The translations under genes and the position numbers were made by a program. This document shows positions 3,100 through 26,610 of a stretch of 64,000 nt of DNA, piece by piece; the first letter of the stretch is position 1; each line of letters opens with the position of its first letter. The stretch comes from Rubellicoccus peritrichatus (GTDB lineage: Bacteria > Verrucomicrobiota > Verrucomicrobiia > Opitutales > Cerasicoccaceae). The stretch is from the NCBI RefSeq assembly GCF_033100135.1, contig NZ_CP136920.1, forward strand, positions 5,203,001 through 5,267,000. The letters run 5' to 3'. A model generated the notes under the pieces. That model was given only the letters and a program-made list of their open reading frames with translations, was not told the origin of the DNA and made no database searches.

Positions 3100-5355
3100 T
3101 TAACCTTGCTTCGGCTCTTGTCGCATTAGTTTTTTCACTTCGCGAAAGATTTTTTTGTGGTCAGGGCGTTCCTCGGCAGGGCCAAAACGCAATCGCTCAA
3201 GGTGCTCAAACACACCGCGCCAACGTTGTTTCTCTTCACTATTCAAGCGTCCTTCAGAACGTGCCCATACAGGGCGAAACTTCACGAGTAATTTACCAGC
3301 ACGTTTACGAATGGGATCTCCGCCCATAAGCGTAGTGATCGTGCCGCTACGTGATGCCAATTTCCGCAACCAAACCCATAGTGAACGAATCGCAATAATC
3401 CCAAAACAAAAAATGGAAATCGTCAGTAATATCCTAATAATTTTTTCACGATCCCATCCGCTTAATAACCACTGCTTAAAGTCATTCCAATAAGACAAAA
3501 GCTCACGTTTAAAGCTTTCATAAAAAGCAACTGAGTAATTCTTGATATCATCGGCCATCTCGATCTGATCAGACTGATCAAAATTAACAACGCGACGGTA
3601 CCAAACCATACGCAAACTATCAACCCAGGCAGACCAACCAGCGATCGTTTGAATACTACCTACAGACTGCGATAAAGATTGTAGCCCGGCTATGCCAGCC
3701 GCAGGAGTTGGATCAACTCGGAACCAGTTTCCCTGACCATCATAAGTCTCTGCCCACGCATGACCAAAGCTGTTGTTCACAATAAGATAGTCCTCGTAGT
3801 CATTCCAATTCGCTCCGGCAAAACCTGCGATCGCACGAGTAGGAAAACCAGCCGTTCGGCAAAGTAGAACGTATGCACCAGTAAAGTGCTCACACCAGCC
3901 TCTCTTGGCATCCTGCATCCATGCAATCAAGGGGTCACCTTCGACTTGAGTGACTGAAGTTTGCGTATCATAAGTATAATTTTCAGCTAACCAAACACGG
4001 GCGCGCTGCGAGAATTCATGCGCATCAATGACTTCTCCTTGCGTCAGTTCATCAACCACTCCCTGCAGGTATTCATTGATCTCTGGATTATTCGGGACAA
4101 CAAGCGTGGTCAACGGGTATGCAACTGGTGGCTTACCGCGAGGTTGTGGAATTGGCCCGGAGGTATTATCCAAAACAGCTCGATCGGCATTCGTGGTCGG
4201 AATACGATCACTCGGACGCATCCCTGAAACACTGTAGCCAAAGACATTGGAAGGAACCTGTTCAAGCATGATCACCTCAGTCTGTATATATGGCCAGAAC
4301 TTGGCTTTCTTGGCGAAACGGATCACATCAAACGAACCTAGGAGTGGAAGATAACGACTGGTGTCTCCTTCAAGATAAAACACCCAGTCATCTTCTATGG
4401 AACGCGTGGCTCGCCCTGTCAGCCTTTCAGGATACATCGTTCCCTCCATTGCAATGCGCCCCGCCTGCTTCAGGGAATTCGATACCTGAAATGCACCGTC
4501 ACGGTATTCATCCAGAACCACCATGCGCCAAAAAGGTCGCGATGGAACATTGTCAAGGTCCGGAACCTGAACCCGAAGGGCAATACTGTCGTCAGCAGAA
4601 AGGCTGTTCACATCGCCAATCTTAATATGCTCACTGAAGCCGATCTTACCGCTGCCTTCGATCTGCAAAAATGGAAGTGCCTGATCCATTCGAAAACGTG
4701 GCATCAAAACAAAGATCAGACTACTGATGGAAACGAGACCAACGAAAAGCCCACCCGCAAAGGCGATCAAACGAAAATCAAGACCATGAGCCAGACGAGA
4801 AAGGAATCTGGACCAACGAAAATGCTTAAAGTCCTCAGCACCTAAAAGTCGCGTCTTACTCGTCTCAAGCAAATTGATCAGAAACAGAAGTGCCATCGCC
4901 GCAGGTGTGAAGATCAACATCTGGAAGGCGAAGAGCAGCGACACCGTCATAACACCTTTTACAACAAGAGTGAACAGACAGAGTAGGACCAACTGTAAAT
5001 CCTCACGCGCTTTTCGATATTGAAAGGCCCGAAAAATCGTCAAGAGCATGACCATGCGGACCATTGGCTTGAGGAACTCAACTCCATGCAGCACGAAGTC
5101 TCCGATGATAAAAACAATTAACAATGGGTTGGCAAACTTCCAAAACGTTTCCGGCAGACGACTTGGCAGCCCTGGCCAGAGCATGGAGGCAATCAACATC
5201 AAAGAAAAGGCGAGCAAGACCGGTTCCGCGCTCATCTCCAAACCAAAGAGCGCCCAGATCGCAATCAGAGAAATGAACTGGCCAAGGAGCCACTTCAGCT
5301 GGTGCAGCTCGTCAGTGTTGAGCCGTACCCGCGATTGTACTGCTGATGATAGCAT
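3100..5355 (-). CDS. TgpA-like membrane transglutaminase/protease (DUF3488-Transglut_core-DUF4129)
   Basis: 751-aa polytopic inner-membrane protein. The N-terminal ~220 residues hold several hydrophobic helices (DUF3488 type). The papain-like transglutaminase core follows, with a complete Cys488 (RGWCEHF), His532 (FGHAWAE), Asp548 (RVDPTPA) triad. A further membrane helix near 650 precedes a charged C-terminal tail of DUF4129 type. It is the third gene of a MoxR-DUF58-transglutaminase cluster, a recurrent arrangement in which the AAA+ and vWA-like partners are thought to act on membrane-associated proteins. The substrate is unknown. Its start overlaps the end of the DUF58 gene by 44 bp, which suggests translational coupling. 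Confidence 0.92.
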   Translation of the reverse strand: MLSSAVQSRVRLNTDELHQLKWLLGQFISLIAIWALFGLEMSAEPVLLAFSLMLIASMLWPGLPSRLPETFWKFANPLLIVFIIGDFVLHGVEFLKPMVRMVMLLTIFRAFQYRKAREDLQLVLLCLFTLVVKGVMTVSLLFAFQMLIFTPAAMALLFLINLLETSKTRLLGAEDFKHFRWSRFLSRLAHGLDFRLIAFAGGLFVGLVSISSLIFVLMPRFRMDQALPFLQIEGSGKIGFSEHIKIGDVNSLSADDSIALRVQVPDLDNVPSRPFWRMVVLDEYRDGAFQVSNSLKQAGRIAMEGTMYPERLTGRATRSIEDDWVFYLEGDTSRYLPLLGSFDVIRFAKKAKFWPYIQTEVIMLEQVPSNVFGYSVSGMRPSDRIPTTNADRAVLDNTSGPIPQPRGKPPVAYPLTTLVVPNNPEINEYLQGVVDELTQGEVIDAHEFSQRARVWLAENYTYDTQTSVTQVEGDPLIAWMQDAKRGWCEHFTGAYVLLCRTAGFPTRAIAGFAGANWNDYEDYLIVNNSFGHAWAETYDGQGNWFRVDPTPAAGIAGLQSLSQSVGSIQTIAGWSAWVDSLRMVWYRRVVNFDQSDQIEMADDIKNYSVAFYESFKRELLSYWNDFKQWLLSGWDREKIIRILLTISIFCFGIIAIRSLWVWLRKLASRSGTITTLMGGDPIRKRAGKLLVKFRPVWARSEGRLNSEEKQRWRGVFEHLERLRFGPAEERPDHKKIFREVKKLMRQEPKQG

Positions 5356-21869: not shown

Positions 21870-22649
21870 CTAAATTGTCATACAGGCATAACCACCATCG
21901 ACGATCATTTCAGTTCCGGTGATAAATGAACCAGCATCCGATGCGAGGAGTAAAGTTGCTCCAATCAATTCACTGGATTCGCCAAAGCGCTTCATCGGAG
22001 TATGACCCATAATCTGAGCAACACGTTCCTCGGTGAGCACCTTACGGTTTTGTTCGGCCGGGAAAAAACCAGGCACGAGGGTATTCACGCGAATCTTCTG
22101 AGTCGCCCATTCGCGAGCAAGGTTCTTGGAAAGATTATGGACAGCTGCCTTGGTTGCAGAATAAGTAAAAACTCTCGAAAGCGGAATGACGCCCGACATC
22201 GAGCCGACATTGATCATGCTCCCGCCCTGCCCGCGCTCGATCAGATAACGACCAAAAACCTGGGAAGCCGAAAATACCGCCTTGAAGTTGACATTGAGGA
22301 TATTCTCCAGCTCCTCCTCGGTTATCTCAAGAAAAGGTGTCGGGCTATTCACACCGGCACCATTTACAACGATATCAATCTTGCCGGACTTGTTAACCAC
22401 CTTCTCTACCAGCTCTTCAAGGCTGTCACGTGAAGCAACATCACATGCTTCAAAGTAACTCTTGCCATGAAAGCGATGTAACTTCTGAAGACGCGCATTC
22501 GCCTTGTCAGGATTGCGCCCAACGAGAACAACCTCCGCACCAGCACCAGCCAGCCCTTCAGCCATCGCCCCGCAAAGCTCACCAGTGCCACCAATGACAA
22601 CTGCAGTTTTTCCTTCGAGTGAAAAGAGATTTGATAGGTATTCGTTCAT
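21870..22649 (-). CDS. SDR oxidoreductase, mannonate oxidoreductase-like
   Basis: 259-aa classical SDR. The cofactor motif [15 protein letters not shown] is near residue 19, NNAG-like VNGAGVN in the middle, and the catalytic Ser plus YSATKAA (Tyr-x-x-x-Lys) follow. The C-terminus [15 protein letters not shown] is typical. The glycine-motif form and neighbourhood with uxaC and the KDG kinase resemble the B. subtilis YjmF-type D-mannonate oxidoreductase (fructuronate reductase). KduD-like activity is the alternative. ATG at 22649 chosen; the in-frame extension to 22709 runs into the repeat and lacks family similarity. Confidence 0.85.
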
Positions 22650-22671
22650 AATAATATTGATAAAATATTCT

Positions 22672-22711
22672 GGGTCACAAAGGACACGAAGCAGGCACAA
22701 AGAACACAAAG
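22672..22711. repeat. Left inverted repeat of the GxxExxY unit
   Basis: About 40-bp arm made of CACAAAG/CACGAAG-type words. It matches the reverse complement of 23111-23149 at 35 of 39 positions. Its inner end is 1 nt from the stop codon (22713-22715) of the GxxExxY gene. The same sequence family recurs at 25517-25556 and 25582-25621. Confidence 0.85.
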
Positions 22712-22712
22712 T

Positions 22713-23099
22713 TCAAAGAACTACCCGTTTGATTCCTTCTTTTAATGTTTTGGCCTTGAAGTTTAAAAGAAGTCCAAGGCCTTTATTCTGAAAACGCAAA
22801 TAAGTTAAAAGCTGTGCAGTATGGACAGGAAGCAATTCGTCTACTGCTTTCAGTTCAACTATCAGACTGTTGCCAATTAATAAATCGATACGATACGCAC
22901 GCTCAATAGTATGCCCTTTATAATTTATTGCGACATCCACCTGGCGCTGATGAGTAATTCCTCTCAAAGTCAGTTCATGAGACAGACATTCCTCGTAAGC
23001 AGTTTCAAGCAGCCCTGCCCCAACCTCACGATGCACTTCAATTGAAGCACCAATAACAGCATTGGCTAATCCTTCAGCATGCTCGACATCATGGATCAT
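22713..23099 (-). CDS. GxxExxY family protein (PDDEXK-like)
   Basis: 128-aa member of the GxxExxY family. The naming motif appears as GLLETAY near residue 29, and the nuclease-like core as RIDLLIGNSLIVELKAVDEL with a D...ExK arrangement; the ending LNFKAKTLKEGIKRVVL is typical. Function is unknown; a PD-(D/E)XK fold is assumed for the family. The gene is bracketed by ~39-bp inverted repeats that start 1 nt past its stop and 11 nt before its start. It splits an otherwise coherent uronate gene block, which suggests insertion as a unit. Confidence 0.9.
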   Translation of the reverse strand: MIHDVEHAEGLANAVIGASIEVHREVGAGLLETAYEECLSHELTLRGITHQRQVDVAINYKGHTIERAYRIDLLIGNSLIVELKAVDELLPVHTAQLLTYLRFQNKGLGLLLNFKAKTLKEGIKRVVL

Positions 23100-23110
23100 A
23101 TTAGGTTAGG

Positions 23111-23149
23111 CTTTGTGATCTTTGTGCCTCCTTTGAGTCCTTTGTGACC
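23111..23149. repeat. Right inverted repeat of the GxxExxY unit
   Basis: 39-bp arm, the reverse complement of the arm at 22672-22711 with four mismatches. A more degenerate copy in the same orientation follows at about 23157-23185 (TGTGCCTCCTCTGTGAGC). These words also appear at 25.5 and 31.6 kb, so they are a dispersed repeat family. Confidence 0.85.
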
Positions 23150-23199
23150 TAAAACGCTGTGCCTCCTCTGTGAGCTCCGTGTCCTAACTGCAAAACCAT

Positions 23200-24297
23200 C
23201 TATCTTACAACACGAGCACCGCCGCCGCCCATGACCTTTTCCACTTCCTTGAGCGAAGCCATGGAAGTATCACCCGGTGTCGTCATGGCAAGTGCACCGT
23301 GAGCAGCACCGTAGTTAACAGCCTTGTCGGGGTCGTTGGAAGCGAGGAAGCCATAGATCAGGCCACTGGCAAAACTGTCACCACCACCAACACGATCCAT
23401 AATCTCAAGCTCTGGATACTCACGTGACTGATGAAAACCACCATCATGCCAAACAATAGCACTCCAGTCATTGACTGTTGCAGTCTTAACCGCGCGCAAT
23501 GTTGTCGCAGTTGCTTTGAAGTTCGGGAAAGTCTTCACCGCCTGCTCAATCATGCTCTTAAAGCTGTCGATCTCGATCTCGGAAATATTCTCGTCAACGC
23601 CTTCTACTTCAAAGCCAAGGCATGCCGTAAAATCCTCTTCGTTGCCAATCATGACATCAACATATTGAGCGATCTCGCGATTCACTTCCTGGCAACGCGC
23701 ATGTCCACCAATCGATTCCCATAATGATGGACGGTAGTTCAAATCATAAGAAACGATCGTGCCGTGCTTCTTTGCAATTTTAACCGCCTCGATAACAACA
23801 TCAGGAGTCGCATCACCCAAGGCAGCAAAGATACCACCAGTGTGGAACCAACGTGCGCCAAGCTTTCCGAAAATATGCTCCCAATCGATATCACCAGGCT
23901 TCAGTTGGCTGGCAGCGGTATTTCCGCGGTCCGGAGTTCCAACCGCGCCACGAATACCAAATCCGCGCTCAGTAAAGTTAAGACCATTGCGCACGGTACG
24001 ACCGATTCCATCGTATGGAGTCCATTTGATGAACTGCGTGTCAACACCACCTTGAAGAATAAAATCCTCAACCAGACGCCCTACCGGGTTATCTGCAAAA
24101 GCTGTCACCACAGCAGTGCGAAGACCAAAGCAACGGCGCAGGCCACGGGTTACGTTATACTCGCCGCCACCTTCCCAGGCAGTGAATTGACGCGCGGTAT
24201 GAACGCGGCCTTCGCCCGGGTCGAGACGTAGCATGATTTCGCCGAGCGAAATACAATCGTAGTGGCAGGATTCAGCGGATTTGATTTCAATAGCCAT
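23200..24297 (-). CDS. kdgK: PfkB-family sugar kinase, probable 2-keto-3-deoxygluconate kinase
   Basis: 365-aa ribokinase-fold kinase. The N-terminal segment ISLGEIMLRLDPGEGRV and GGGEYNVTRGLRRCFG are typical of KDG kinases. The C-terminal PfkB signature DRVGGGDSFASGLIYGFL supplies the catalytic Asp. The context (uxaC, SDR, LacI regulator) supports phosphorylation of 2-keto-3-deoxygluconate to KDPG. Neither mannonate dehydratase nor KDPG aldolase, the steps before and after, is in the window. About 100 bp upstream separate it from the Ldh_2 gene. Confidence 0.88.
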   Translation of the reverse strand: MAIEIKSAESCHYDCISLGEIMLRLDPGEGRVHTARQFTAWEGGGEYNVTRGLRRCFGLRTAVVTAFADNPVGRLVEDFILQGGVDTQFIKWTPYDGIGRTVRNGLNFTERGFGIRGAVGTPDRGNTAASQLKPGDIDWEHIFGKLGARWFHTGGIFAALGDATPDVVIEAVKIAKKHGTIVSYDLNYRPSLWESIGGHARCQEVNREIAQYVDVMIGNEEDFTACLGFEVEGVDENISEIEIDSFKSMIEQAVKTFPNFKATATTLRAVKTATVNDWSAIVWHDGGFHQSREYPELEIMDRVGGGDSFASGLIYGFLASNDPDKAVNYGAAHGALAMTTPGDTSMASLKEVEKVMGGGGARVVR

Positions 24298-25498: not shown

Positions 25499-25516
25499 AA
25501 TTATATTAAGATTTTT

Positions 25517-25621
25517 GGGTCACAAAGAACACGAAGCAGGCACGAAGATCACAAAGCAAAAAGCAATTCCTTGTAAGCATACTTTGAGTTCTTCGTGCCT
25601 GCTTCGTGTTCTTTGTGGCCC
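25517..25621. repeat. Gene-less inverted-repeat element
   Basis: Arms 25517-25556 and 25582-25621 (40 bp each) are reverse complements with three mismatches, around a 25-bp spacer. They belong to the same repeat family as the arms around the GxxExxY gene. It fills most of the gap between the Ldh_2 and D-2-hydroxyacid dehydrogenase genes and would form a very stable hairpin in RNA. Confidence 0.9.
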
Positions 25622-25629
25622 AATACAAG

Positions 25630-26610
25630 CTAGATAATAGCAGTCGGGATTGGTGCGTCGTTAACCTGCGCAAGAGGCTTCTCACCTTTCAGCATGTTGA
25701 TAAGATTCTGTGTCGCCATTACGGCCTGACGTTCAACTGATTCATAAGTGCGGCTGCCAATGTGAGGCGTCACAATGCAGCGTGGTGCCTTAAGCAAAGG
25801 ATGATCTGCCGGTGGAGGCTCTTCATCGAGCACATCAGTGCCATAGCCACCAACCTTACCGGATTCAAGTGCAGCTGCAATATCAGCGGTATTAACCAGT
25901 TCGCCGCGCGCGCAATTCAGAATAATGACTCCATCCTTCATGTTCGCAATAGAGGCAGTGGAAATCATGTCACGCGTTTCTTCGGTCAAGTTTGTGTGCA
26001 GACTGATCACATCGGATTTCCCGAAGAGTTGGGTTAAACCATCTGCTTTCTCAATACCATACTCTTCAGCAAACTCAGTGGGCCAATAGAGATCATAGCC
26101 AACGATCTTCATCCCGAAAGCCTTGGCACGAATAGCAACTTCCTTGCCGATGCGCCCCAGTCCTACAATACCGATCGTTTTGCCCATGACCTCGTGTCCG
26201 GTCAAACGTTTCCAGTTCCCTTCGTTGACGAAGTTCACCTCGTCAACCAGATGGCGGAAGAGCGCAAGCATAAGGGCGAATGAATGCTCGGCCACTGTGG
26301 TGTGATTCACCCCGGGGCAAAAGCTCAACGGAATGCCCATCTCGGTCGCAGCCGCAACGTCGATCTTGTCCACGCCAATGCCATACTTAGCAAGAATCTT
26401 GAGACGCGGCTGGGCTTTTTCCAGAACCGCACGCGTGATCGCGTCATCTCCACAAAGGAAAGCGTCAAAGTCACCTGCAAGCTCCAACATGCGCTCTTCT
26501 GGAAGCGGCCCACGCTCGCGAACAATCTCGGCACCAGTGCTCTCAAGGAGGGCGTGATGCGGACCGGGTGTATCCTGATAGGATGTGGTGGTAAGAAGAA
26601 TTTTAGCCAT
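25630..26610 (-). CDS. D-isomer-specific 2-hydroxyacid dehydrogenase
   Basis: 326-aa NAD-dependent dehydrogenase of the phosphoglycerate/hydroxypyruvate type. The Rossmann motif GLGRIGKEVA is near residue 150. Catalytic residues are visible as Arg in NCARGELVN, Glu in DVLDEEPP and His in VTPHIGS. It is the first gene after the LacI operator (palindrome 22-43 nt upstream of its ATG), so it probably leads the regulated transcript. In uronate blocks such enzymes may act on a 2-keto acid by-product. Substrate unassigned. Confidence 0.9.
   Translation of the reverse strand: MAKILLTTTSYQDTPGPHHALLESTGAEIVRERGPLPEERMLELAGDFDAFLCGDDAITRAVLEKAQPRLKILAKYGIGVDKIDVAAATEMGIPLSFCPGVNHTTVAEHSFALMLALFRHLVDEVNFVNEGNWKRLTGHEVMGKTIGIVGLGRIGKEVAIRAKAFGMKIVGYDLYWPTEFAEEYGIEKADGLTQLFGKSDVISLHTNLTEETRDMISTASIANMKDGVIILNCARGELVNTADIAAALESGKVGGYGTDVLDEEPPPADHPLLKAPRCIVTPHIGSRTYESVERQAVMATQNLINMLKGEKPLAQVNDAPIPTAII

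Follow-up and report, generated by a model that had tools for sequence, protein, structure and literature searches.

We found that a small GxxExxY gene of Rubellicoccus peritrichatus lies alone between two inverted arms, each built of tandem 7-mers. The first-pass annotation of this DNA had tied the arms to the gene. That link held for nearly all GxxExxY genes, but arms of this kind are also common without a gene, and equivalents surround genes of the S23 family. We consider it an even call that the arms and the putative nuclease between them make up a minimal mobile unit and that this unit gives rise to the gene-less hairpins. The earlier interpretation as a whole is partly supported.

A GxxExxY gene lies between inverted arms of tandem 7-mers

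We analyzed a 64,000-nucleotide stretch of the R. peritrichatus genome, referred to here as the window. The features of the locus are given in Table 1. GxxExxY is the sole ORF between the arms, and its neighbors, an SDR gene (21870-22652) and kdgK (23200-24297), flank the unit and are on the same strand as the GxxExxY gene. This agrees with the first-pass annotation, which had placed the unit within a kdgK-SDR-uxaC block and had given the gaps between arms and gene as 1 nt at the stop codon and 11 nt at the start codon. It had also described arms at 22672-22711 and 23111-23149 that match in inverted orientation at 35 of 39 positions. We confirmed this 39-nt core (90% complementary) and found that the full arms extend to 44 nt, over which they are 86% complementary. 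Each arm contains four 7-mers with a spacing of 9, 11, and 9 nt, and both arms read inward to the gene; the words of the left arm are CACAAAG, CACGAAG, CACAAAG, and CACAAAG. The inverted-repeat score at this gene was 30.8, compared to a median of 8.0 and a 95th percentile of 11.1 for control ORFs. The arms are real, and chance is excluded as their source. In alignments, the remnant outside the right arm matches the arms of the copy in another genome, G008, better than it does the present right arm.

Table 1. Positions of the GxxExxY gene, its arms, and related repeats in the window
Feature	Position	Strand	Basis or class
GxxExxY gene, 128 aa, putative Cas4/RecB-type PD-(D/E)XK nuclease	22713..23099	-	TIGR04256, PF13366, catalytic residues, AlphaFold model, PDB matches
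Left arm, 3' side of gene; 7-mers at 22676-22682, 22685-22691, 22696-22702, 22705-22711	22668..22711	+	Inverted repeat I1
Right arm, 5' side of gene; 7-mers at 23111-23117, 23120-23126, 23131-23137, 23140-23146	23111..23154	-	Inverted repeat I1
Remnant of another arm, CACRGAG type, same internal spacing, outside the right arm	23158..23187	-	Direct repeat D1
Gene-less hairpin, same arm family as the arms of the gene	25515..25623	.	Inverted repeat I2

Inverted arms surround GxxExxY genes in related genomes

In 14 genomes of the order, we scored how similar the two 150-nt flanks of a gene are in inverted orientation, with a threshold score of 12. Inverted arms were present at 61 of the 66 GxxExxY loci and at 11 of 274 control ORFs taken from these loci (Fisher p 1e-49), with three of the five top control scores being GxxExxY arms counted a second time. 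Thus, the arms are not equally common around unrelated genes, a possibility that had been raised earlier. Arms were absent or unclear at about 8% of the GxxExxY loci in the order.

The common design is a T-rich edge followed by three or four tandem CRCRRAK-like 7-mers, which are spaced 8 to 11 nt apart and run inward from both sides. One 7-mer word is repeated in both arms of an element, and the word varies between elements; among those seen were CACAGAG, CGCAAAG, CACGGAT, CGCGGAT, CACGAAT, CGGGAAG, and CACAAAA. Six full GxxExxY genes and one fragment occur in the window genome, and by eye each full gene lies closely between inverted arms, whose sequences differ from gene to gene. The idea that the same arms would flank GxxExxY genes in relatives therefore stood for the architecture and fell for the sequence. 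A single arm sequence recognized by all GxxExxY proteins is ruled out because the sequences vary by copy.

Similar arms occur beyond the phylum, in Geobacteraceae, Fibrobacterota, Desulfaltia, Bacteroides (at a radA junction), Bernardetia, and Sphingomonas (between fabD and fabG). Clear arms were not found at the Persicobacter, Fusobacteria, and Prevotella copies of GxxExxY, and those of the Treponema copy were borderline. At four GxxExxY loci (L130, L131, L110, and L125), we also observed outward-pointing 7-mers, which are possibly the arms of adjacent hairpins.

The GxxExxY protein resembles Cas4/RecB-type nucleases

The window protein matched TIGR04256 (E 4.5e-42, 143 bits against a cut-off of 35) and PF13366 (E 4.5e-41, 140 bits against a cut-off of 22), and its profile matches were limited to GxxExxY and PDDEXK_3 profiles. 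In all 70 aligned GxxExxY proteins, E32, Y35, and D72 were invariant, and K84 (99%), Q96 (99%), E82 (94%, with D in four proteins), and Y100 (89%) were nearly so. These residues fit the E-D-(D/E)xK-QxxxY pattern of RecB and Cas4 nucleases. The AlphaFold model of the window protein had a pLDDT of 87. Its closest structure was Cas4 SSO0001 (4ic1; Z 9.0), with the LHK and lambda exonucleases and Hjc resolvases ranking lower. Since the Foldseek E-values were weak (best, 6e-3), the motif pattern bears part of the nuclease assignment. On the basis of the motifs and the predicted fold, the window protein is a putative PD-(D/E)XK nuclease of the Cas4/RecB type, as had been suggested in more general terms by the first-pass annotation.

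Two other candidate identities were rejected. Sequence hits in the PDB were short matches to designed toroids, which are not relatives, and a defense-system identity had only a weak match to an RT-associated PDDEXK (E 0.054). We also observed double GxxExxY proteins, with tandem PF13366 matches in single ORFs of 271 to 284 aa (G051:C1:424071-424805 and G054:C17:13390-14121).

The arms and the gene are inherited together and can move as a unit

We built a tree of 70 GxxExxY proteins and labeled 67 of them, with the unit labels assigned by eye from the arms. The last base of the unit (G, T, or A) required 4 changes on this tree, compared to a mean of 18.6 and a minimum of 15 for shuffled labels. 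In contrast, genome of origin required 53 changes on the same tree. Thus, arm type follows the protein and not the host. The arms and the gene are one inherited unit. Co-inheritance is sufficient for arm type to track the protein clade, and the tracking is no proof of recognition.

The annotation had also suggested that the gene travels with, or acts on, the repeat, and two copies 2.3 kb apart in one genome (G016) support travel. The two copies closely resemble each other over precisely the span between the outer ends of their arms, and their flanks are unrelated. Because the likeness ends exactly at the arm ends, the unit moves whole; this pair also defines the ends of the unit. G006 has a similar-looking pair that is older, and we count one clear recent case of whole-unit movement (G016) and one older case (L089). 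No transposase or integrase was found inside the unit. By eye, no target-site duplication was seen in G016 or around the hairpins, where a closely related empty site for comparison was lacking.

At the kdgK-SDR junction, we found a GxxExxY unit in five genomes of three genera (G000, G001, G002, G006, and G008). G004 has a decayed unit consisting of a C-terminal piece and one arm, and an S23-type hairpin is found instead in G005, G007, and G009. In G003, G010, and G012 there is no unit; these are orthologous blocks of the unoccupied kind that had been anticipated. Four of the five GxxExxY proteins at this junction form one clade. Because the G001 protein is on a different branch, outside this clade, the junction was probably filled more than once. 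The presence of units in five genomes of three genera rules out a recent insertion at the window locus. Thus, the earlier picture of a mobile-like unit is retained for the movement of the whole unit, as in G016, and dropped for a recent arrival at this locus. Most unit copies within the family look vertically inherited.

A second junction, between pheS and pheT, contains an S23 unit in G007 and a GxxExxY unit in G005. In G009 it contains a gene-less hairpin, an SGNH-like gene, and a GxxExxY unit, and the flanks in G007 and G009 are 95 to 96% identical. The left arm of the G009 hairpin continues into the first 11 nt after the left arm of the neighboring GxxExxY element, and for this reason, the hairpin looks like an internal-deletion derivative. 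Its loop is the only one in which element sequence is clearly retained. The SGNH/GDSL-hydrolase-like gene inside pheS-pheT (L122, about 3340-3950) is absent in the two sister genomes compared.

Gene-less hairpins match the arm type of genes in their own genome

The gene-less hairpin in the window lies between two other genes. Its arms (25515-25556 and 25582-25623) are 93% complementary and enclose a 25-nt loop, and its DNA fold has a z of -12.7. We searched the window genome (5.8 Mb) with the element or with the hairpin (25500-25640) and obtained about 40 matches each, at about 25 to 30 sites. The window GxxExxY gene is at only one of these sites; the rest are gene-less hairpins or single arms. 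The loops of these hairpins are about 15 to 80 nt long, and their sequences are apparently unrelated to one another. We sampled 800 kb of the window genome at even intervals, and about half of the 27 strong hairpins in this sample were of the tandem-unit type, with several types of unit. No RNA family scored above the gathering score, and two plant-miRNA matches on the hairpin were rejected as chance stem matches. The window genome also has a separate, REP-like hairpin family, GGTAGGGCGCAGTCTCCAGACAAGCCG, without tandem 7-mers and with about 9 copies in the 800-kb sample (for example, at L191:14522, L166:11412, L199:19490, and L176:7568).

We aligned 42 gene-less unit hairpins from eight genomes to the GxxExxY and S23 arms and permuted the genome labels. 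The best alignment to arms of the same genome had a mean of 16.4, compared to 12.7 after permutation. The hairpin's own genome was best for 16 of the 42 hairpins, compared to 5.3 after permutation, and 0 of 5,000 permutations reached 16 or a mean of 16.4, with the precision of the test limited by ancestry shared between sister genomes and by the inclusion of a few non-unit hairpins. We concluded that gene-less hairpins match the arm type of their own genome's genes. For several hairpin types, such as ACAGAATTAACGGAATT in G000, the genome contains no gene that matches.

We also compared how the repeats change. Between the orthologous arms of G000 and G008, AAG is changed to GAG in all eight units, in both arms. 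Double changes that preserve pairing numbered 44, compared to roughly 12 expected, by a rough estimate in which the pairs are not independent and the arms were selected for complementarity. In G000, arms belonging to a single hairpin resembled each other slightly more than arms taken from different hairpins did (permutation p 0.015). Together with the single CACRGAG-type remnant outside the right arm in the window, these differences suggest replacement of arm pairs as whole pieces and not base by base. Because the units within an element change in concert, each nuclease lineage may have its own repeat specificity.

S23 genes have similar arms with a different period

Inverted arms were also found at 87% of the loci for S23, a four-helix-bundle protein (n = 46). 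The unit period was 7 in 29 of 40 S23 arms, compared to 8 to 11 in 54 of 59 GxxExxY arms (p 9e-14). Of the 79 genomes of the phylum, 56 contain S23, frequently more than once. The 23S rRNA intervening sequence of Coxiella carries S23 and has a 28-bp terminal stem, which RNase III cleaves; three tandem heptamers lie next to the S23 start (PMC4990558).

Two S23 genes in G016 (L137 and L149) have arms of CACAAAG(G) units with a period of 8. This unit is otherwise typical of GxxExxY arms, and the two genes may represent an exchange of arms between the S23 and GxxExxY classes. Intergenic tandem TAACTGA heptamers of unknown origin, mostly direct repeats, were described in Beggiatoaceae and cyanobacteria without mention of S23 (PMC4679880), and their 7-nt period recalls the S23 arms.

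A proposed mechanism and its alternatives

The design of the unit can be seen directly in these genomes, whereas its chemistry is what we infer. We propose that the unit is a gene for a Cas4/RecB-type nuclease of about 130 aa between inverted arms that are short arrays of near-identical 7-mers and that the gene would be expressed by read-through from the host operon. The nuclease would bind the 7-mers of its own arms, probably when the arms extrude as a hairpin or cruciform during replication, and would cut or trim at the arms. Intergenic sites would then receive new copies of the whole unit, or of the arm pair alone, through host repair. By analogy with REPINs and RAYTs, the gene-less hairpins would be non-autonomous and would be mobilized in trans. 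S23 genes with period-7 arms would make up a parallel class, and the 23S rRNA intervening sequences would be its known special case. Besides the results on inheritance, movement, and hairpins given above, this reading draws on the conserved catalytic residues, on the purifying selection on the protein, and on the orientation of the gene, which mostly follows that of its operon. Speaking against it are the failure to see a transposase, an integrase, or a target-site duplication, the age of the unit at the window locus, the mostly vertical inheritance, the small number of whole-unit moves, the hairpin types that match no gene, the loci with no clear arms, and the single loop that retains element sequence.

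The strongest rival, which we nevertheless judge unlikely, treats the unit as an intervening sequence that RNase III removes from RNA. According to this model, the arms pair in the operon mRNA, RNase III cuts the stem, excision spares the host genes, and the nuclease has some other role. Consistently with this, S23 genes show the same arm design, and the Coxiella S23 stem is an RNase III substrate (PMC4990558). The element is also predicted to fold as RNA with its arms paired (z -4.9), and the two element types alternate at the operon junctions kdgK-SDR and pheS-pheT. Gene direction follows the operon, with the GxxExxY gene aligned with a co-directional neighbor pair in 33 cases and opposed in 6 (p 1.4e-5). 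However, arm mismatches showed no G-U excess on the gene strand (57 versus 81), and selection for an RNA stem is thus weakly disfavored. The predicted fold is that of a DNA nuclease, and excision from mRNA would not by itself spread hairpins or units.

We regard as less probable still that GxxExxY is a host-domesticated nuclease of repair or replication, working at unit hairpins throughout the genome, with the arms of its own gene being a regulatory or self-targeting site and not transposon ends. The protein is under purifying selection, and its catalytic residues are retained; dN/dS between orthologs was 0.05 to 0.17 (pairs with unsaturated dS). It is also nearly absent from phages and plasmids: we found no phage match, an IMG/VR scan gave none, and of the 8 plasmid records with GxxExxY, several are large replicons. 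A phage or plasmid origin was therefore rejected. These findings would fit a resident enzyme, as would the vertical persistence at one junction across several genera and the match between hairpins and resident genes. A domesticated enzyme accords poorly, however, with a presence as patchy as 34 of the 79 genomes of the phylum, often in several copies and with 1 to 12 diverged copies per genome. It also accords poorly with the whole-unit copy in G016 and with the loss at kdgK-SDR that left the G004 remnant.

Least probable, and in our view improbable, is that the hairpins are independent repeats spread by other means that captured small genes (GxxExxY and S23) in their loops by chance: some hairpins have no matching gene, and GxxExxY and S23 have a common arm design and occupy the same junctions, but unit class tracks the protein clade with only 4 changes, each protein family has its own period, and such arms are rare at unrelated ORFs.

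Comparison with known systems

The organization that we propose for the mobile unit is like that of REPIN-RAYT systems (PMC3116915), in which a chromosomal gene is flanked by palindromic repeats, matching gene-less inverted pairs are dispersed in the intergenic DNA of the same genome, and persistence is largely vertical. The enzyme here is predicted to be a Cas4/RecB-like PD-(D/E)XK nuclease, whereas RAYT is a Y1 HUH transposase. The arms are inverted arrays of 3 to 4 tandem 7-mers, whereas REPs are 20 to 40 nt, and several diverged gene-bearing copies occur per genome. Because the enzyme and the repeat design differ, the unit is REPIN-RAYT-like in organization but not a member of that group.

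Like the S23 intervening sequence of 23S rRNA (Coxiella, Leptospira, and others), the window unit is an element of about 430 nt in which a long terminal stem closes a loop that holds a small ORF and, as in Coxiella, tandem heptamers lie beside the start codon (PMC4990558). Unlike it, the window unit lies between kdgK and SDR and not in 23S rRNA, its gene is GxxExxY, and its unit period is 8 to 11 and not 7.

The putative nuclease shares the E-D-ExK-QxxxY residues and, in the model, the core fold of Cas4/RecB-type exonucleases (SSO0001, lambda exonuclease, and AddB). Unlike these, it has only about 130 aa, with no room for their extra domains, and it stands alone between arms, outside a recognized CRISPR or helicase operon here. 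MITEs and other non-autonomous inverted-repeat elements, such as NEMIS and ERIC, are short, intergenic, and descended from a larger element that bears a gene. The gene-less hairpins are like them in being short intergenic inverted repeats and, in our model, in having a gene-bearing parent, but no transposase or target-site duplication was seen here, and the parent would encode a putative nuclease. We did not find the arm design or the link between GxxExxY and arms in the literature searched, which covered few subscription papers; GxxExxY is named in two of the papers covered, one of them giving no repeat context, and the profile accessions appear in two.

Tentatively, and with somewhat less than even confidence, we suggest a new class of mobile element in which a standalone Cas4-like nuclease and tandem-7-mer arms spread together, with gene-less hairpins as by-products. 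The S23 elements would be a sister class with another protein and a 7-nt period, and the rRNA intervening sequences would be one outpost of it. Our data suggest that two abundant protein families, GxxExxY and S23, belong to hairpin-like genetic elements. Viewing both as cargo of inverted arms with family-specific periods would give each a testable function. It would also explain a large share of the intergenic hairpins in these genomes and place the rRNA intervening sequences, an old puzzle, within a broader group of elements.
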